From Halomicrobium urmianum (lineage in GTDB: Archaea; Halobacteriota; Halobacteria; Halobacteriales; Haloarculaceae), in NCBI RefSeq assembly GCF_020217425.1, contig NZ_CP084090.1:2790001-2854000 (forward strand): 64,000 nt of DNA, in the 5' to 3' direction. Positions 36,115-46,576 of this stretch are shown in pieces. The notes under the pieces are model-generated. The model saw only the letters and a program-made list of their open reading frames with translations. It was not told where the DNA came from and searched no databases. Numbering within the stretch: the stretch's first letter is position 1; the number at the start of each line of letters is the position of its first letter. The position numbers were made by a program, and so were the translations under genes.

Positions 36115-36250
36115 CTTCCTCCCAACCTACTCGCTCACCGCTGACGCGGTTTGCTCCGTGAGGGTGGGACTTCCTGCTTCCACGACGCGCTTTGCAGACA
36201 CCGAATCAGTGTCCGTAGGGAGCGCAGTCTCCACAGGCGTTGATTCGGGA
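36115..36250 (-). ncRNA. Candidate omega/reRNA-type guide RNA at tnpB 3' end
   Basis: For IS200/IS605 and IS1341-type tnpB genes, the 3' end and downstream edge encode a non-coding RNA that guides TnpB; sense-overlapping RNAs of this kind are known in Halobacterium. The segment here holds an ACCGC/GCGGT stem at 36137-36150 and the conserved tail of the gene. The element is broken, so expression is uncertain and the boundaries are approximate. Confidence 0.35.
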
Positions 36251-36539
36251 CAGCCCGTCCCTACTTGTTCGAGGCCGCGAGAAAGGATGTTCCACGATGC
36301 ATTCGCATCCCTGTCCGCTTCAAACCCACACGACGGACACGAATGCTCGCGCACCCACAGCGGTTTGTCCGTCTCTGTTCCGCACGACGCGCACTCTTTG
36401 GTCGTGCCATGAGGGTCCACGGCGGCGAAGTACGTGCCTTCCCGCTCGCACTTGTATTCGAGCATTCTGAGGAACGTCCCCCACGAGGCCCCGGCACGGT
36501 TCCGAGAATTACCGGGAAGTTCGACCAATCCCTTCATGT

Positions 36540-37390
36540 CTGCTTTATTGAATCCGGGGACGGCGGGCAGATAGCGTCGCTGTGAAGGTCGAAGCGAAGC
36601 GGAGAGGGGAATGTGCCTCAACTCCTTTCCGCTTCGTTACACAAGCGGCGTCGCTAGCTCAAAAGCGCTGTGCCGCCAGCCCCACGGCGGTGGTGAGCGA
36701 CCCGGCTGGCAGCGGGTTTGCCGGCTGGAAGCATCTGACGCTGCACTTTCTGCGGGTTCACATGAGTGCGAGCGACGCGGAAATCGTCGACTGGGCCAGT
36801 GAGATAGACCGGGTGCGCGGTCTTGTAGTTGGCCCGCTTCGAGTTCCCGGCACCCTCGACGCTGTGGCATCCGGCCGAACGGAGTGCGGCCGGGCTCGTT
36901 GGACGAGCGTGCGAGTCCAACGGCGGTCGTTCGAGCGGGTGCCGACCCGCATCTGGCGCCAACTGCTCGACCGGTCAGCAGCCCGCTGCGATCCCGGCGA
37001 CTCGGCACACTGGCCCCACGATACCCGGGTGGGCCGTCAGGTTGCGCTGCGCAACACCGACAAAATAGAGAGTCTCGCCGGCGACAACGGCTATGACGAC
37101 CAATCACTGCGGGACGCACCCCGTTCAGACGGCGTCCGGCCAGTGATCAAACATCGGCTGTTCGCCCACTACGACCACGCCCACAACGCACGGTTGGACA
37201 GCGATCTTTACGGGCAGCGCTGGCTGGCCGAGAGCGCATTCTCGGCCATCAAACGCCGATACGGCTCCGCTGTCAGACCGGGCGTCTGGTACCGAGCGTT
37301 TCGTGAACTCGTGCTTACCGCCGCAGTCTACAACCTCGAGCAAGCAATCAAAGAGTGATCCCTACGCTGTCCGTGGATTCAATAGAGCAG
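36540..37390 (+). mobile_element. Decayed IS5-family element inserted in tnpB
   Basis: An 851-bp insertion bounded by 16-bp terminal inverted repeats with one mismatch (CTGCTTTATTGAATCC at 36540-36555; complement of CTGCTCTATTGAATCC at 37375-37390). The flanks TCATGT (36534-36539) and TCACGT (37391-37396) look like a target duplication with one later mutation. Precise removal together with one flank copy restores the tnpB frame. Confidence 0.82.
36582..37358 (+). pseudogene. IS5-family transposase remnant with internal deletion
   Basis: The C-terminal half is recognisable as a haloarchaeal IS5 transposase: LAGDNGYDDQSLRD (second Asp), RPVIKHRLFAHYDHAHNARLD, ESAFSAIKRRYGSAVRP (catalytic Glu) and FRELVLTAAVYNLEQA. 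Upstream, LTLHFLRVHMSASDAEIVD and FERVPTRIW match the N-terminal part. The segment expected between them, with the first catalytic Asp (DSTGFDR-like), is missing, and the beginning is degenerate. The frame happens to be open, but the product would be inactive. Confidence 0.8.
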
Positions 37391-38213
37391 TCACGTCCAA
37401 ATCCTCGACCGCTACAAGGTCGTACTCGCGGGCGTAGTACGCCGAGAGTTTGTGCAAGAAGTCTCGCCGCTTGCGCCTCAGGTCGGCGTGGCATCGAGCG
37501 ACCGTCTTGCGCTGTTCCTCCCAATTGTTTGAGCCGTGTTCCTTCCGTGAGAGGTTGCGTTGAGCGCAATCCAACCGCTCGCGTTCGTCGGAAAGGTCCG
37601 GCGACCCGACGGCGGTTCCATCGCTGTCGTGGACGTATTTGAGGATTCCCACGTCGATGCCAACTGCGTCAGTCACTTCGTCGGGCTTCTCGGGTGGGTC
37701 GTCGGGAGTTTCGATGCCAAAGATGGCGTACCACTTGCCGGTGGGTTCCCGTTTGACTGTGACGGTCTTGATGGTGGCGTCGTCAGGCAGGTCGCGGTGG
37801 AAAGTGATGGGAATGTCACCAATCTTCGAGAGCCATAGTCGAGTCCGACCACTCGTGTTTTTGAGCTCGAAGCCGGACTGACTATAGGTGAACGATTGGT
37901 ACTCACTCGGCGCTTTCCACTGCAACTCCCCGACGCTGTAGCCGTTCTGCTTTCGGCCTTTGAGCGTCGAGAGGTTGTCGTACAACCGCTGGACGACTTT
38001 CTGCAACACCTTCGAGTGAACGTCTCGCAGGTCAGTCCACCAGTCTTTCAGGTCCGGTAGGCGTTTCTGCTCGGGGTACGCCGACGTATCGTCGTGTCTG
38101 TTGAGGCGGTGGAGGAAATGGTTGTAGACCTGCCTACAGGTATCGACAGTCCACGCTAATCGCTCGCGGAGATCGTCAGTCGGGTTCAATCGATACCTGT
38201 AGTTGTAGTTCAT

Positions 38214-38852: not shown

Positions 38853-40217
38853 TCACTGCCGTCGACGGTCGCGGACGGCGACGGCTGCCTCCGCGGCGAA
38901 CCACAGCGCGACGGCGGCAGCGGCCGCGAGGACGAGCGCCGCGTCGAGCGGGGACGCCCACGCCGGGAGCGCGAAGAGGGTACCGTGCAGGAGAAGCGGC
39001 GGGACCGTCGCCACGAGCCAGTGGGCGGGATCCACGTCGTCGAACGGCGACGCCCGCTGGGACTCGTAACCGAGCCGGGCCACGCTCGCGCCGCAGGCGC
39101 GCTCGTCGCCCGTCCCGAGCACCTCGACGTCGTAGCTCCCAGTGGGGGCGGGACGCGACCAGGCGACCGATCCGTCCGGGCGGACCGCCAGGACGCGCTC
39201 GCCGTGCGAGTCGGCGATCACCGTGGTTCCATTCGGGAGGCGGTCGGCGTCGCGGGGCCACAGGAGGCGCTCGTCGGTCCAGGTCCACGACTCGACCCAC
39301 TTTCCGCCGGACTCGTCCGGCGACGTTCGGCTCGCGTTGATCGCCCCACTCCCGTCTTCACGCTGGTACTCGACGACCCGGTTGTTCTCGGAGTCGGCGA
39401 CGAGGACGGCGGGACCGCCCCGCTCGGGCGGGATGTAGTCGGGGTTGTGCTGCTCGTACAGCTTGTCGTGGTCGCCGTCCTCCCCGAGCGTCCAGTCCTC
39501 GAGGAGCCCCCGTCCGGGCTCGACGAAGATCACCTGATCCTGGTTGCGCAGGCTGGCCATGACGACCTCGCCGCCGTCGATCTCCACCAGCTCCACGTCG
39601 TTGAGGTGCGTCCAGTCGGAGGGGTACGCGCCCCCGCTGTCGGGCTCGTAGACCTCGCTGACCCGCCACTCCCAGATGACTTCATCCGCCTAGGTGTCGA
39701 TCATGTACACGCGGTCGGGGTAGCTGATGTCGGCGACCAGCAGGACCGACTCGTTCACGCGGTCGACGTCGTGGATCTGCGTCGATCCGTTCCGGCGGTG
39801 GTACAACTCGTGGACGGCCTCGCCGTCGCCGGTCGACAGGTTCACCCGGCGAACGACGTTCCGGAGGCAGTCCTCGCCGCCGCACCGGTGGTCGTCGACC
39901 GCGTCGCTCGCGACGAACTTGACCGTGCGAGCGCCGGTCGGCGTCGGGTCGACGTCGTGGTAGAGAGTCAGCGAGTCGTTCCGGTACGCGACCAAGCCGT
40001 TCGGTCCGTAGGCGACGATCTGTCCCGGCCCCGTTCCGTCGACGGTCGCGACCAGGGTCCGGTCGCGCTCGCCGTCGGGGACGGCTGCGGTCGCTCTGGC
40101 CGTGTCGCGGTCCGTCACGGCCGAGGCCGCCAGCGAGGCCACCGCGAGGAGGCACACCACCAGCGCGAGTCCGCGCAGGTGACGACGATCCAGCGGGACG
40201 AGAGAACCGTCGGGCAT
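38853..40217 (-). pseudogene. Arylsulfotransferase (ASST)-like membrane protein gene with one in-frame amber codon
   Basis: A single frame of 454 codons encodes an N-terminal membrane helix (GLALVVCLLAVASLAASAV), a beta-propeller-like domain and two C-terminal helices. Motifs such as STQIHDVDRVNESVLLVAD, SDWTHLNDVELVEIDGGE, EQHNPDYIPPERGGPAVLV and SENNRVVEYQR fit haloarchaeal arylsulfotransferase-like proteins. Codon 176 (39690-39692) is TAG, splitting DRVYMIDT from ADEVIWEWRVSEVY. Coding character is unbroken on both sides and no other lesion is seen. It may be a very recent pseudogene or a sequencing error. The 190 nt behind it (38659-38852) contain no gene. Confidence 0.82.
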
Positions 40218-40448: not shown

Positions 40449-41627
40449 ATGGCTACGATCGAGACCAGCGTCAACCGCCCGTACCTCCCCGCCGACGGCG
40501 CGACCCTCACCGCGGAAATCGACGTCGAGCCGGGCGAGCAGACCGCGAGCCCCCGCCGCCACGTCGCCCTCTGTATCGACACGAGCGGGTCGATGCAGGG
40601 CGAGAACATCCAGCGCGCCCGCGACGGCGCAGCGTGGGTGTTCGGCCTGCTCGACGACGACGACTGGGTCAGCGTCGTCGCCTTCGACACCGACGCGGAA
40701 GTGATCCTGCCGGCGACCCGGTGGGGCGACATCGAGCGCGACGACGCGATGGACGACGTCGACGACCTCTCCGCCGGCGGCGGTACCGACATGTACAGCG
40801 GGCTGCGCGCGGCCGCCGAATCGCTGCACGGCTCTCGTGCGGGACCCGACGCCGTCCGCCGGCTCCTCCTGCTGTCGGACGGCAAGGACAACGAGCACCA
40901 GCCCGCCGACTTCGCCGACCTCGCGCGGGAGATCGACGCCGCCGGCGCGCGGATCCAGTCGGCCGGCATCGGCACGGACTACAACCAGAAGACCATCCGG
41001 ACGCTCGGCACCACCGCGCGCGGGACCTGGACGCACCTGGAGTCCCCCGGCGACATCGAGGCGTTCTTCGGCGACGCCGTCGAGCAGGCCGGATCAGTGG
41101 TCGCGCCGGACGCACAGCTGGAACTCGACGTCGCGCCCGGCGTCGAGGTCAGCGAGGTCTACCGCGCGCTGCCGCAGGCCCAGGAGGTCGACGTCGAGTG
41201 GGAGGACAACACCTCCGTCGTGAAGCTCCCGGACCTCGTCGAGCGGGAGCAACAGCGCGTCGTCCTGAAGATTCACGCGCCGGGCGGCGACCTCGGCGAG
41301 GAGGCGACGCTCGCCGACGTGACCCTCACCGCGCGCGGCGAGACGGCCGTCGACGAGGTGGCCGTCGAATACACCGACGACGCGGACCTGCTCGCCGAGC
41401 ACAACGAGTCCGTCTCGATCGACCACAAGCAGACCGTCGTCCGCACCGAGCTGGGCAAGGGCAACGTCGAGGCCGCCGAGACCGAGGTCGAGCGGATGAC
41501 CGTCGTCCACGGCGAGGACGCGGCCGCCGTCGAGGAGGCCGAGCAGCAGACCCAGCTCGTCAAGGAGGGCGGCCGCGCCGAGCGGAGCCAGGCCACCCAG
41601 ATCGTCGACGAGGACCGACTCGAGTGA
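40449..41627 (+). CDS. VWA domain protein of kinase/phosphatase locus
   Basis: A 392-residue cytoplasmic-type protein without signal or membrane helix. The von Willebrand factor A domain (residues about 37-215) has a complete MIDAS: DTSGSM at 44-49, Thr in GGGTDMYSGL near 113, and Asp in LLSDGKDNEH near 144. A beta-rich domain follows (about 225-345), resembling the C-terminal part of TerY/YfbK-type VWA proteins. A charged helical tail ends the protein. It is the first gene of a cluster with a kinase (40 nt downstream), a PP2C and FHA proteins, so it probably provides metal-dependent scaffolding for the switch. Confidence 0.9.
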   Translation: MATIETSVNRPYLPADGATLTAEIDVEPGEQTASPRRHVALCIDTSGSMQGENIQRARDGAAWVFGLLDDDDWVSVVAFDTDAEVILPATRWGDIERDDAMDDVDDLSAGGGTDMYSGLRAAAESLHGSRAGPDAVRRLLLLSDGKDNEHQPADFADLAREIDAAGARIQSAGIGTDYNQKTIRTLGTTARGTWTHLESPGDIEAFFGDAVEQAGSVVAPDAQLELDVAPGVEVSEVYRALPQAQEVDVEWEDNTSVVKLPDLVEREQQRVVLKIHAPGGDLGEEATLADVTLTARGETAVDEVAVEYTDDADLLAEHNESVSIDHKQTVVRTELGKGNVEAAETEVERMTVVHGEDAAAVEEAEQQTQLVKEGGRAERSQATQIVDEDRLE

Positions 41628-41667
41628 CGATGGACGGAGCGGGACGGGAGCGCGGAGGTGACCGGCC

Positions 41668-42906
41668 GTGACGGCCGGCGCCGCGACCAGCGACATCGGG
41701 CCAGGCGACGTCGTCGCCGGCCGGTACCGGATCGAGGAGGAGGCCGGCGCCGGCGGGTTCGCCCGCGCGTACGAGGCCGTCGACGGCGACACCGGCGAGA
41801 CGGTCGCCGTCAAGGTGCCCAACTACGACTCCGCGAACGACGCCGACGTCATCGAGGAGTACTTCGGCGCGGAGGCGGACGCCTTAGAGCGGATCCGCGC
41901 GGCCGGCGGCCACCCGAACGTGATGGACCTGCTCGCCCGCACGGACGTCGGCGGGACGCCCGTCCTCATCGTCGAGTTCGTCGACGGCTACGAGCTCGAT
42001 CGGGCGATCGACGAGATCGGGACGCTGGACGCCGGCGAGGTCCGCGAGGTCGGGATGGGCCTGTCGGACGCGATGTCGTTCCTCCACGAGAACGAGATCG
42101 TCTACCGCGACCTGAAGCCGGACAACGTGATGCTCGCCGAGCGGGACGGGCAGGTGACGCCCGTCCTGATCGACTTCAACACGGCCACCGGGTTCGACGC
42201 CTCCGGCGAGGCCGAGGACTCCGGGACGACCATCCTCGGCCCCTACAAGCCCCGCGAGGTCGCCGAGGCCAGCAGGACCGACGCCCGGCAGGGCCCGTGG
42301 TCGGACGTCTACTCCATCGGGAAGATCCTCCTGTTCCTGCTGAAGGGCACCGTCCCGAAGCAGGACGGGATCGACCCGCGGGACTTCGGCGTCGACTGCC
42401 CGGCCTACCTCGCCGCCGTCGTCGAGAAGGCCACCCGGACGGACTACGAGGAGCGGTACCCCAACGCCACCTCGCTGTACCACGTCCTCGAGCAGGAGGA
42501 CCCGAGCCCGCCGCCGCAGGCGCGCCTGCAGTCCCTGCAGACGGACGCGCGGTTCACGATTCACCCCGGCGACACCCTCGGCCGGGAGGACGCCGTCGGT
42601 CCCTCCCCCGCGATCGCCATCGAGGACGAGGACGAGTACGTCTCGACAGTCCAGATTCAGTTCGAGTACGACGGCGGGACGTGGGTGCTGGGCGACCGCA
42701 GCCTCAACGGCACCTACGTCCAGACCGGCGAGGGCTGGCAGCGGGTGCTGGGCGCGGCCGGCCGCGAGCGTCTGCGCGAGCAGGGCGAGGACCCCACCGA
42801 CCGCCACGGCGAGGTCCCGCCCGAGACGTTCCGGCTCGCGGACGGCGACCTGATCGCGCTCGTCCACCCCAGCTACGGTGTCGCATTCGAGTTCCAGACG
42901 GGATGA
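41668..42906 (+). CDS. Ser/Thr protein kinase with C-terminal FHA domain
   Basis: A 412-residue Hanks-type kinase starting at GTG. The Gly-rich loop AGAGGFARAY (about 26-35), VAVKV with Lys49, catalytic loop YRDLKPDNVML (Tyr instead of His before Arg-Asp148) and LIDFNTA (DFN for DFG) are visible. The metal and catalytic residues are thus kept. An FHA domain (about residues 300-410; TLGRED, SLNGTYVQ) follows and would bind phosphothreonine, perhaps its own. There is no membrane helix. The stop codon overlaps the ATG of the PP2C gene. Activity and targets are unknown. Confidence 0.92.
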   Translation: MTAGAATSDIGPGDVVAGRYRIEEEAGAGGFARAYEAVDGDTGETVAVKVPNYDSANDADVIEEYFGAEADALERIRAAGGHPNVMDLLARTDVGGTPVLIVEFVDGYELDRAIDEIGTLDAGEVREVGMGLSDAMSFLHENEIVYRDLKPDNVMLAERDGQVTPVLIDFNTATGFDASGEAEDSGTTILGPYKPREVAEASRTDARQGPWSDVYSIGKILLFLLKGTVPKQDGIDPRDFGVDCPAYLAAVVEKATRTDYEERYPNATSLYHVLEQEDPSPPPQARLQSLQTDARFTIHPGDTLGREDAVGPSPAIAIEDEDEYVSTVQIQFEYDGGTWVLGDRSLNGTYVQTGEGWQRVLGAAGRERLREQGEDPTDRHGEVPPETFRLADGDLIALVHPSYGVAFEFQTG

Positions 42907-44069
42907 CCATGGAGTACGCAACACGATACGACGTCGGCGACCGGAAGCGAGCGAGCGGCATCAACGAGGACAGCGTCGCGGTGTCCGTCTTCGAGGAGGG
43001 GCACCGCTCGGGGCTGCGCGCGGGTGACGACGCCGGCGAGAGCGATCCGGGTGGCGTCCGCGGCGGGGCCCGCGTCGACGCGGACCGGGGTGCGGCTCGC
43101 GGGGCCGGCGCGGGCGACGCATACGACGGCAGCGAGGCCGGCGCGCCCGAGAACCGGTCCGCGTTCGCGTTCGCGCTGGCCGACGGCGCCGGCGGCCACG
43201 ACGCGGGCGACGTCGCCTCCTACCTCGCGACGACGCGCGCCCTCGAAGAGCTGTCGCCCGTCGCGGCTCGCGCGGCGCGGAGCGACCCCGGCCCGTTCGG
43301 GATCGACGTGAACGACGCGGTCCTCCCCGACGAGCCCGACGCGGCGTCGCTGGAGGCGGCCGTCGAGGAGGCAGTCGTCGCGGCCCACCGCGAGGTCGTC
43401 GGGTACGCCGCCGAGTCCGGGACGGCGGCGTACACGACCCTCGTGGCCGGGGTCTGCGTCGGCGGGCGCTGTCACTACGGCTGGGTCGGCGACAGCCGGG
43501 CGTACCTGGTCAACGCCGCCCGGGACCGGATCGAACTGCTCACGAAGGACCACGCCGTGGTCGAGGAGTTGCGCGACCGCGGCGAGGTCGACGACGTGGC
43601 CGCCCACGTCCATCCGCGCGGCAACGAGATCACGCGCGCGCTGGGCGGCACCGGCGACGCCGACCCCGAGACGGCCACCGTCCCCGTCGACACCGAGACC
43701 GCCCCGGTCTACGCCGAGGACGTCCTGTTCGTGACCAGCGACGGCCTGATCGACGCCCAGACCGACGCGCCGGTGCTGTACGACCGGTACGTCGAGTCCG
43801 GACACGACGAGGAGGTCGCCGCGTCGGTCCGCGAGGCGGTCGTGACGGACGCGGAGTTGCGCGATTACGTCCTGCGCACAGATTCGCTGGCCGACGCCGC
43901 CGAGGACCTGATCGACCTGGCCAACGAGCGCGGCGGCAAGGACAACCTCTCGCTGCTGCTGGCCCGCGATCCGGGGCTCCCGTCGACGCCCGACGACCGA
44001 CCCCTGCGGCGTGCGCTCGAACCCGAGCTCCTGGAGGACCGGGCCACTGTCATCCTCCGCGAGGAGTAA
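42903..44069 (+). CDS. PP2C-family protein phosphatase
   Basis: A 388-residue metal-dependent phosphatase, expected to reverse the neighbouring kinase. Motifs: INEDS (about 20-24), ALADGAGGHDAGDVAS, YTTLVAG, WVGDSRAYLVN, VTSDGLID and ERGGKDNLSLLL, supplying the Asp ligands of the two-metal centre. A low-complexity Gly/Ala/Asp insertion of about 50 residues (34-86) splits the first strand pair from the core, making it longer than typical 240-residue PP2Cs. The start ATGACCATG overlaps the kinase stop by four bases; ATG 42909 is an alternative. Confidence 0.9.
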   Translation: MTMEYATRYDVGDRKRASGINEDSVAVSVFEEGHRSGLRAGDDAGESDPGGVRGGARVDADRGAARGAGAGDAYDGSEAGAPENRSAFAFALADGAGGHDAGDVASYLATTRALEELSPVAARAARSDPGPFGIDVNDAVLPDEPDAASLEAAVEEAVVAAHREVVGYAAESGTAAYTTLVAGVCVGGRCHYGWVGDSRAYLVNAARDRIELLTKDHAVVEELRDRGEVDDVAAHVHPRGNEITRALGGTGDADPETATVPVDTETAPVYAEDVLFVTSDGLIDAQTDAPVLYDRYVESGHDEEVAASVREAVVTDAELRDYVLRTDSLADAAEDLIDLANERGGKDNLSLLLARDPGLPSTPDDRPLRRALEPELLEDRATVILREE

Positions 44070-44091
44070 TCAGCGCTCGTTCTCCACGAAA

Positions 44092-44098
44092 CTATTTT
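44092..44098 (+). promoter_or_regulatory. TATA element before FHA/zinc-ribbon gene
   Basis: CTATTTT lies 30-36 nt before the ATG at 44128, suggesting that this gene also has its own promoter within the cluster. Confidence 0.45.
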
Positions 44099-44127
44099 CT
44101 ACGATTGGATGCCATTGCCATACCAGG

Positions 44128-45372
44128 ATGTCAGAAAGTACCGGTTCGCTGGTCGAATGTCCTCTCTGTGGGGAGGAGTTCGACCCGACGGTGGCGGGGG
44201 GATGGTGTACCAACTCGGACTGCGGCGAGTGGCAGCACGAGGGCACGACCGACGCGGGCGGCGACGAGACCGAGGCTGACGACGAGTCGGAGCCCGATGG
44301 GCTCCCCGGAGACTGGGACACGCCCGCTGGGACGAAGTCGGACGACGATGACGACGAAGCGTCCGGTGACGTCGGCTCAGCGGTGCCGGGGCCGGGAGCC
44401 GAGGACGGCGAGGCCGAGGGCGACGACGCGACTGCCGAAGCCGCGACGGCCGACGAAGCGGCGCAGGACGGCGAGGACGCCGCGGACGCGGATGACGGGA
44501 GCGCGGACGGCGCGGTCGAGGCAGATGCGGACGGCGGCGAGGACGCGGCAGACGAGGACGGCGACGGAGCGCCCGCGGACTCCATCGACTGTCCCGACTG
44601 CGGCGCCGACCTGTCCGCGGACGCGGAGTTTTGCACCGAGTGTGGGTCCGACGCCGTCGGCGAGGACGAGGCGTCAGACGAGGCCGAACTGTCCGAGTGT
44701 CCGTCCTGCGGGACGGACGTCGACGCGGACGACAGCTTCTGCGCCGGCTGCGGCGAGGACCTCGACGCCCACCGCGGCGACGACGACGGCGGGCTCGAAG
44801 CCTGTCCGTCCTGCGGGACGGACGTCGACGCGGCCGACAGCTTCTGCGCCTCGTGTGGTGAGGACCTCGACGCCCACCGCGACGGCGACGTCCTGACCGA
44901 GTGCCCGTCCTGCGGGACGGACGTCGACGCGGCCGACAGCTTCTGCGCCGGCTGCGGCGAGGACCTCGACGCCCACCGCGGTGGCGGGACGGCGGACGGT
45001 CCCGTCGACTCGGGCGCGACGGCTGGCGGCGGCGCGTCGAGCGCGGGTGCCGGTGCGGGCGAGGAGACGCCGTCGGTGCTCGCGCTGACGGCCTACGGCC
45101 GCTCGGTCGTCGTCGGCGACGACGAGACCGTGGGCCGGGAGATCCGGTCGTTGCTGGCCGACGCGGGCAAGTCCGAGGACGAGGCGGTCCGCATCCACCG
45201 CGAGCACGTCCGGTTCGTCCGGGAGGACGAGCGGTTCTACCTCGTCGATCTCGGCGAGAACCCCACGCAGCTCAACGGCGAGTCGCTCCAGAAGGGGGAC
45301 CGCCGTCCCGTCGAACCCGGCGACGAACTGGACCTGTCCGGCGTGGTGACGATGACCGTCGAGGAGCCCTGA
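44128..45372 (+). CDS. Multi-zinc-ribbon protein with C-terminal FHA domain
   Basis: A 414-residue protein. It has an N-terminal zinc site (VECPLCGEEF, then WCTNSDCG), an Asp/Ala/Glu-rich linker of about 110 residues, and four consecutive CxxC...CxxC double ribbons (about 150-290). It ends in an FHA domain (about 320-410; TVGRE, IHREHVRF, NPTQLNGESL) that should read phosphothreonine. The last three ribbons are nearly identical, with 105- and 99-bp spacing at 44698, 44803 and 44902, so they arose by tandem duplication. It probably acts as adaptor for the kinase-phosphatase pair. No membrane helix. Confidence 0.88.
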   Translation: MSESTGSLVECPLCGEEFDPTVAGGWCTNSDCGEWQHEGTTDAGGDETEADDESEPDGLPGDWDTPAGTKSDDDDDEASGDVGSAVPGPGAEDGEAEGDDATAEAATADEAAQDGEDAADADDGSADGAVEADADGGEDAADEDGDGAPADSIDCPDCGADLSADAEFCTECGSDAVGEDEASDEAELSECPSCGTDVDADDSFCAGCGEDLDAHRGDDDGGLEACPSCGTDVDAADSFCASCGEDLDAHRDGDVLTECPSCGTDVDAADSFCAGCGEDLDAHRGGGTADGPVDSGATAGGGASSAGAGAGEETPSVLALTAYGRSVVVGDDETVGREIRSLLADAGKSEDEAVRIHREHVRFVREDERFYLVDLGENPTQLNGESLQKGDRRPVEPGDELDLSGVVTMTVEEP

Positions 45373-45484
45373 TCGACGGAGCGGTGCGAGCGGACGACCC
45401 CGATACTGCTCGGAACTCCCCGCCGGGAGCCCGACCGCCGCGGCGAACGGAAGGGATTTCACGGGGGCCGACAACGATGCGCGT

Positions 45485-46576
45485 ATGACGTGGCGGCGCG
45501 AGGTCGGCGACGCCTTCCGTCTGGTCCGGACTGAGCGATGGGTGGCGACGGACCTCGTCGCGGGCGCGCTCCTGTACGCGCTGTGGTTCGCCGGCACGGG
45601 AGCGCTCCTCCGGCGGGCCGCGGACGCCGCCGGACTCACGCCGCCAGCGGCCCACCGCCCGGTCCTCGTCGCCGCCTGCCTCCTCTGGCTGGTCGTGCCC
45701 GGGGCGGTCGCCGTCTACCGCCTCCGCGACCGTCTGCTGAACCTGCGCGGGAACGTCGAGCAGCGCTACCGCTTCGACTACCCGGGCGCCCTGCTCGTTC
45801 CGCCGGCGGCGTTGCTCGCGGCCCTGGCAGTCATCGCCGCGGTCGTCCCCGATCGCCGCTACGGCGCGGTCGCCCTCTCGGTCGCCGGGCTGTACCTGCT
45901 GGCGCGCACGCTCGCGTACAGCTACCGCGTGTTCGCCTTCTCGCGACCCGCGGTTCTCTACGCGGCGACGTTCGCGACGGTCGCGGTCCAGGCGCCCGCG
46001 GTCCTGGTGACGGTCGCACCGGCCGTCGACCGGGGCGCGCTGGTCGAACGGGCCGTCGCGGCGCTGGGGGTCGGCGAGTACGTGACGGGGACCGCCGGCG
46101 GCGTCCCGCTCCCGCTGGTCGCGACCGTTGCGGTGCCGGTCGGGCTGGCCGTCGCGTACGTCGCCCTCCAGAACGTCGCCGCGCTCGCGGTCCGTCTGAT
46201 CGAACCCGAGGTGAACCGCTCCGACCTCCGGACGGGCCAGCGCTACCCGCCCTTCGTCGACGTGGCCGACGGGCCCGCCTACGACCGGACGCCGGCCGAC
46301 GGCGAGGCGACCGACGACGACCGAGCGGCCGAACCGACGCCCGACGAGGGGACCGACGACGCCGGCGAGAACCTGGACGAGGTCCGTCACACGCGCGTGT
46401 TTAGGCCCCCGGGTGAGGACGGTGACGACGCGAGCCCCGGCGGCGCGGACCTGATCGAGGACGGCGCCGGCGGCGCGGACGCTGGGACCGGCGGCGCCGC
46501 CCGTCGCTGTACGGCCTGCGGCGAAACCGCGGGGGCGGACGCGACGGTCTGTCCGAACTGCGGGACGTCGCTGTAG
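45485..46576 (+). CDS. Polytopic membrane protein with C-terminal zinc ribbon
   Basis: A 363-residue protein with about six membrane helices in residues 20-240. A hydrophilic acidic region follows, containing HTRVFRPP, a short Thr motif that could be phosphorylated. The final zinc ribbon is CTACGETAGADATVCPNCGTSL split as CTAC and CPNC. The closing ribbon resembles those of the preceding FHA protein, which suggests that the two work together. It is the last gene of the cluster and the only membrane-embedded component, so it is the probable output or sensor. The family is not recognised. Confidence 0.78.
   Translation: MTWRREVGDAFRLVRTERWVATDLVAGALLYALWFAGTGALLRRAADAAGLTPPAAHRPVLVAACLLWLVVPGAVAVYRLRDRLLNLRGNVEQRYRFDYPGALLVPPAALLAALAVIAAVVPDRRYGAVALSVAGLYLLARTLAYSYRVFAFSRPAVLYAATFATVAVQAPAVLVTVAPAVDRGALVERAVAALGVGEYVTGTAGGVPLPLVATVAVPVGLAVAYVALQNVAALAVRLIEPEVNRSDLRTGQRYPPFVDVADGPAYDRTPADGEATDDDRAAEPTPDEGTDDAGENLDEVRHTRVFRPPGEDGDDASPGGADLIEDGAGGADAGTGGAARRCTACGETAGADATVCPNCGTSL

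Follow-up and report, generated by a model that had tools for sequence, protein, structure and literature searches.

The stretch of DNA analysed here (the window, 64,000 nucleotides of the Halomicrobium urmianum genome, within which the cluster coordinates are counted) contains at 40449-46576 five genes encoding a VWA protein, a Ser/Thr kinase with an FHA domain, a PP2C phosphatase, a zinc-ribbon/FHA adaptor and a membrane protein. The genome is haloarchaeal, GC-rich and 4.25 Mb in size, and the third-position GC of 0.89-0.97 across the five genes is typical of real haloarchaeal coding sequence. A first-pass annotation had described five same-strand genes with these domains, and the plus-strand open reading frames (ORFs) and their Pfam matches agree with it:

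40449..41627, plus strand: ArnB-like VWA protein; VWA domain at residues 39-203 of a longer protein that also has a C-terminal tail (Pfam VWA, 1.3e-17)
41550..41561, plus strand: first threonine motif of the VWA tail, TQLV at T368 (alignment conservation)
41595..41606, plus strand: second threonine motif of the VWA tail, TQIV at T383 (alignment conservation)
41668..42906, plus strand: Ser/Thr kinase with C-terminal FHA domain (Pfam Pkinase, 5.9e-28; FHA, 1.6e-5); catalytic D148 in YRDLKPDN, activation-loop TT at 187-188
42909..44069, plus strand: PP2C phosphatase (Pfam PP2C_2, 2e-8); ORF also open from ATG 42903
44046..44057, plus strand: threonine motif of the PP2C tail, TVIL at T382, numbered from 42903 (alignment conservation)
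44128..45372, plus strand: zinc-ribbon/FHA adaptor (Pfam Zn_ribbon_3, 1.2e-22, four zinc ribbons; FHA, 1.9e-7)
45485..46576, plus strand: membrane protein with about five hydrophobic segments, an acidic linker and a C-terminal zinc ribbon (hydropathy and Pfam)
46391..46402, plus strand: TRVF motif (T303) of the membrane protein, within its acidic linker (ortholog alignment)
46502..46573, plus strand: C-terminal zinc ribbon of the membrane protein, CTAC...CPNC (Pfam Zn_Ribbon_1 at residues 342-363, under the curated cut-off)

The catalytic motifs of the kinase are conserved (VAVK, YRDLKPDN, and DFN replacing DFG), its activation loop carries an invariant TTI, and its nearest solved relatives are bacterial kinases of the StkP/PknB/PpkA type. 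The PP2C likewise retains its metal motifs (NED, DGAGGH, SDGL, GKDN), and the nearest solved phosphatases are of the bacterial Stp1/PstP/PppA type. A four-base overlap between the two genes, reported earlier, is doubtful: it needs ATG 42903, while most PP2C orthologues begin at the residue aligned with ATG 42909, two codons further on, leaving a 2-base gap to the kinase. The defence kinases PD-T4-6 and MAD6 were dismissed, as the generic kinase domain alone matches and the other cluster proteins have no convincing match.

The metal ion-dependent adhesion site (MIDAS) of the VWA protein had been described as intact, and its five residues (D44, S46, S48, T113, D144) are indeed all present and invariant in 24 aligned sequences. 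When a profile of 24 VWA sequences was compared with the PDB, Sulfolobus ArnB (8S05) was the top match (E 1.8e-21) and outranked every other VWA protein; third place went to the ArnB paralogue 5A8J. The strong match to 8S05 spans the VWA part, the C-terminal match being weak (6.6 bits); the ArnB_C domain (PF18677) matched none of the 24 VWA sequences and nothing above cut-off in the window's own genome. The likeness to TerY-P type gene triads (VWA, PP2C and kinase) that was suggested earlier does not hold for the VWA protein, whose closest solved relative is ArnB; its TerY membership was rejected on the vWA-TerF-like model, which scored only E 0.05, and that in just 2 of the 24 sequences. The fifth gene product was correctly described as a membrane protein with a terminal zinc ribbon, judging from hydropathy and from a C-terminal CxxC...CxxC ribbon that scores 21.3 bits against a Pfam cut-off of 25 bits; a Pfam search of this protein returned no family other than the zinc ribbon.

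The five genes form a real co-inherited module. Among 392 genomes of the same order as the window's organism, the full-length VWA protein (E about 1e-60 or better) was found in 56, and 55 have a close relative of the kinase (E<=1e-50); the two sets are identical but for G282, which has a diverged VWA protein and a kinase at a lower score. Fifty-eight loci around VWA matches (L008-L065) were fetched and searched with the five window proteins by phmmer, with crude gene calling in the fetched loci. The window and L008-L035, all of family f1, make up type A (29 loci), with the order VWA-kinase-PP2C-adaptor-membrane. Type B (L036-L054, 19 loci), with the order adaptor-VWA-kinase-PP2C, comes mostly from other families and is also present, as an additional cluster, in two congeners of the window's organism. 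The remaining 11 loci (L055-L065), which contain more distant VWA relatives without such neighbours, served as controls. VWA, kinase and PP2C genes are adjacent in 48/48 loci, with the VWA gene inverted in L054, and the type B adaptor of L041, missed by phmmer, was recovered by a profile beside the VWA gene. An unbroken run of all five genes is found in 24 of the 29 type A loci, and the other five loci keep the missing genes elsewhere: the adaptor and membrane genes lie 8 kb from the cluster in L023 and, as a pair, 70 kb away in L027 (G238), while in L011-L013 the membrane gene is found elsewhere in the genome (in G059 at a distance of about 184 kb). That genes are retained after moving out of the cluster argues for joint function more strongly than mere adjacency does. 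Trees of the VWA protein, the kinase and the PP2C show the same split into A and B (support 0.91, 0.999 and 0.88, respectively), and two genomes carry both types. The co-occurrence check proposed in the first-pass annotation has thus been run, and the genes clearly co-occur far beyond this strain; what had been described as a writer, an eraser, readers and a dedicated membrane partner is inherited as a set.

Type B clusters have additions of their own. Most have a second kinase-FHA gene after the PP2C gene (e.g., L042 13645-14862), and in several cases the PP2C extends into its own FHA-like domain. Their membrane genes are on the opposite strand, and in 14/19 loci these end in TR[IV][FY] (once TQIF) and a zinc ribbon, while L036, L052 and L053 encode soluble proteins with a tail of this kind; none of the 11 control loci encodes a protein with such a tail. 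Direct homology between the membrane domains of types A and B is undemonstrated (no hmmsearch match; hhalign probability 14.6%). As for the control loci and their distant VWA relatives, those of L055, L057, L059 and L062 (and L056 and L058) adjoin HSP70-like genes, often with GrpE-like or J-domain-like genes as read from sequence, and in L056-L058 an FtsZ-like gene with GGGTGSG lies within a few kb.

FHA domains recognise phosphothreonine and depend on the residues that follow it. In both types, the kinase FHA has the canonical G-R, Ser and N-G-T residues. The adaptor consists of a conserved N-terminal ribbon (residues ~10-34), more ribbons in an acidic linker, and a C-terminal FHA domain, which in the main type B group has the canonical residues and in type A has HREH (conserved as HREHV) instead of the Ser-containing motif. 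A profile of the adaptor FHA matched 26 PDB sequences at E<=0.01, among them GarA, and the ArnA FHA structure 5A8I was not one of them. Of the two phosphothreonine readers claimed earlier, the type A adaptor is thus less certain than the kinase, because of HREH in its pocket.

The new element is a linear motif, T-x-[hydrophobic]-[hydrophobic], that is near-invariant in otherwise variable tails. Two copies lie in the tail of the VWA protein and one in that of the PP2C, and the membrane protein has it as TRVF within its acidic linker. In the first VWA motif (T-x-[IL]-V), T368 and V371 are each present in 29/29 type A sequences, and in the second (A-T-x-I-V) so is T383; type B VWA tails have VT[RK]IE at about the position of the first and (T)TVV at a place similar to the second, with T in 17/19 and S in 2. 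In the PP2C tail, T382 is present in every sequence (48/48, of which 29 are type A and 19 type B) and R380 in 29/29 type A sequences, the rest of the tail being variable. Every intact membrane protein orthologue aligned has T[RQ]V[FY], which along with the terminal ribbon, whose four cysteines are invariant in the tail alignment, is nearly all that is kept in a long, acidic and unalignable linker; a second copy, T[AS][VI][FY], is common, and the membrane gene of L021, cut by a frame change, carries the motif in the next frame.

The distribution of the tail follows that of the cluster. Twenty-five tails were combined into a profile; because they came from motif-bearing proteins of cluster loci, the motif is in it by construction. 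At E<=1e-9 this profile matched 54 of the 392 genomes, namely 52 of the 55 cluster genomes and 2 of the 337 others (Fisher p about 1e-58, a value that ignores the relatedness of the genomes). Two of the three cluster genomes below this threshold, G002 and G238, have tails at weaker scores, and one of the two other genomes, G337, matched by its zinc ribbon only. Genome-wide use of the tag was not found in the window's own genome, where the only full tail of TRVF and zinc ribbon is that of the window's membrane protein. Around type B clusters, two islands were read:

G250:C1:2378000-2437000: island with loci L130-L132 (59 kb read)
G299:C5:160000-199999: island with loci L133-L134 (40 kb read)

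In these islands, T-x-[VI]-[FY] occurs within the last 90 residues of 27/83 genes and the reversed motif in 2/83, compared with 7/129 for both the forward and the reversed motif in the control loci (Fisher p 2e-7 for the island enrichment). The carriers include PQQ beta-propellers, HEAT repeats, a cold-shock domain, pentapeptide repeats, a CAP domain, a winged-helix type (DUF7343) and membrane proteins; many have a terminal zinc ribbon and some end in the motif without one. The islands also encode several FHA proteins. Because the domains of these carriers are unrelated, the motif is read as a modular tag and not as a trait of one membrane family. The first-pass annotation was thus right about a co-inherited membrane partner and too narrow in calling it a dedicated output, since relatives have several other proteins with the same threonine tail. 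No paper on the cluster or on the threonine tail was found in the open-access literature.

Upstream of the cluster, two minus-strand ORFs in the same frame (39690-40217 and 38853-39596; together 38853-40217) resemble a single gene split by an in-frame stop, and neither has a Pfam match. Farther upstream, at 36127-38213, ORFs on both strands resemble transposase and TnpB-type fragments, with a GC content (0.62-0.64) below that of the surroundings. A scan for promoters and terminators gave none above chance, as is expected for an archaeon with a model of the bacterial, sigma-70 type.

The co-inheritance of the genes, the conservation of active sites and MIDAS, and the conservation and enrichment of the threonine tags are the basis for reading the module as a reversible phosphothreonine switch with tagged clients, which we consider probable, phosphorylation and binding being our inference. 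The kinase-FHA protein would phosphorylate the threonines of the T-x-[hydrophobic]-[hydrophobic] tags, of which the VWA tail has two, the PP2C tail a third, and the cytoplasmic linker of the membrane protein the fourth, TRVF. The FHA domains of the kinase and the adaptor would then bind the phosphorylated tags, and the VWA protein, the adaptor and a tagged client would thereby assemble into a single complex, to be freed when the PP2C strips the phosphates. As one such client, the membrane protein could tether the complex or report for it at the membrane; relatives would attach this tag to other clients, mostly next to a zinc ribbon, and so put them under the same control. The ribbons of adaptor and clients may act like the ArnA zinc finger, loosely holding the partners before phosphorylation. 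More tentatively, and with some doubt on our part, T-x-[VI]-[FY] in a C-terminal tail, usually followed by a zinc ribbon, may be a modular archaeal tag that places unrelated proteins under the kinase/PP2C/FHA/VWA hub encoded beside them.

Several observations weigh against this reading. A genome with no detected cluster, G178, has a tailed protein with TEVF, TRVF and a zinc ribbon (G178:C13:25421-25552, L138), and the cluster genome G345 (locus L034) has a membrane protein without a TRVF-type motif. The 52 matches among 55 cluster genomes are not 55 independent events, since the profile was made from motif-bearing cluster sequences and the genomes are related, and part of the tail score is supplied by the zinc ribbon rather than by the threonine. 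Finally, the type A adaptor FHA lacks the usual Ser of the phosphate-binding pocket.

The rival that survives best, though we think it rather unlikely, is a type VI-like threonine phosphorylation pathway (PpkA-Fha-PppA), or a bacterial VWA/PP2C/kinase triad, acting on a membrane-embedded machine. Thr14 of the Agrobacterium membrane protein TssL is a PpkA phosphorylation site, with the peptide DLPpTVVEI bound by Fha (PMC3953482). The tag resembles this Fha-bound TssL site and is likewise carried by a membrane partner, and the module's kinase and PP2C are nearest to the bacterial PknB/PpkA and Stp1/PppA types, with PpkA and PppA themselves among their solved relatives and FHA domains present. 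However, a search of the window's own genome for the type VI sheath gene TssB/VipA found none, with a positive E. coli control, and the membrane protein matches no Pfam family beyond its zinc ribbon. Also unlikely is that the conserved threonines serve kinase docking or autoregulation instead of FHA binding, with a different role for the adaptor and no tag-reader logic. The noncanonical FHA pocket of the type A adaptor would fit this explanation, as would the presence of the invariant TTI in the kinase activation loop as well. Against it, the FHA domain of the kinase and those of the main-group type B adaptors are canonical, the motif spreads over unrelated proteins of islands with several FHA proteins of their own, and no threonine is replaced by serine in type A. 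Least likely of all is a haloarchaeal Arn system proper, an ArnA-ArnB switch repressing archaellum genes: ArnB is first in the PDB for the VWA profile, a zinc-ribbon/FHA partner, a kinase and a phosphatase are all present, and the archaellum gene PF04659 is found at E<=1e-10 in 49 of the 55 cluster genomes, but ArnB_C and the ArnA structure 5A8I go unmatched, the phosphatase is a PP2C rather than a PP2A, the cluster is absent from most archaellated haloarchaea, and the archaellum marker is missing from two nearly complete cluster genomes, G250 and G276, so that motility is unlikely as the only output.

The mechanism of archaeal Ser/Thr phosphorylation is known mainly from Sulfolobus, and several haloarchaea are genetically tractable. 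The module is compact and co-inherited, supplies writer, reader and eraser, and points to specific candidate phosphosites on specific partners, which makes archaeal phosphothreonine signalling directly testable. Should the tag prove to be a general handle for clients, it would offer cells a simple means of putting unrelated proteins under a single switch, and its sequence signature could be used to find clients.

Parts of the switch proposed here recall several known systems. As in TerY-P triads, the VWA, PP2C and kinase genes are adjacent; unlike the stand-alone TerY, the module's VWA protein is larger and ArnB-like, and FHA and membrane parts are added. The FHA proteins GarA and OdhI are phosphorylated by PknB/PknG at ETTSVF, and GarA binds its own tail and controls metabolic enzymes; they share with the module a threonine followed by V-F beside an FHA reader, and differ from it in having no VWA protein, adaptor or membrane partner. 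A haloarchaeal FtsZ-like/VWA/kinase locus, Huta_2050-2056, was described in 2010 (PMC2875224). It too has several kinases and comes from a locus family that mostly includes VWA proteins, but it is centred on an FtsZ-like gene, whereas here only distant VWA relatives (L054, L056-L058) adjoin FtsZ-like genes. The type VI PpkA-PppA-Fha pathway is matched in its kinase, PP2C and FHA, and in a membrane protein threonine followed by hydrophobic residues (compare DLPpTVVEI; PMC3953482), which would act in a similar way here; unlike that pathway, the module is archaeal, has a separate and tagged VWA protein and a zinc-ribbon adaptor, and is not accompanied by a type VI sheath gene.

A further parallel is the Sulfolobus network of ArnA, ArnB, ArnC/ArnD and PP2A that regulates the archaellum (PMC6509490, PMC12852372, PMC7472852, PMC5300886). 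ArnC phosphorylates C-terminal threonines of ArnB, which leads to binding by the ArnA FHA domain, while the zinc finger of ArnA holds the unphosphorylated complex (PMC12852372), and ArnB-like proteins in Halorubrum have been mentioned earlier (PMC12852372). Between them, this network and the TssL pathway of Agrobacterium provide published examples of the steps proposed here, and the module has components for either kind. The statement in the first-pass annotation that no comparable described system was known to it was therefore too strong, as an archaeal switch of zinc-finger/FHA protein, VWA protein, kinase and phosphatase had already been described (PMC6509490, PMC12852372). The module differs from Arn in having a PP2C in place of PP2A, an FHA domain on the kinase itself, a tagged membrane partner and a different zinc ribbon, with neither an ArnB_C match nor a sequence link between its adaptor FHA and ArnA; because these last two tests fail despite the top rank of ArnB, the module appears to work like Arn rather than to be Arn. 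What the two would share is an archaeal VWA protein, of which ArnB is the nearest solved relative, with a putatively phosphorylatable tail, a zinc-finger/FHA partner, a Hanks-type kinase and a phosphatase.

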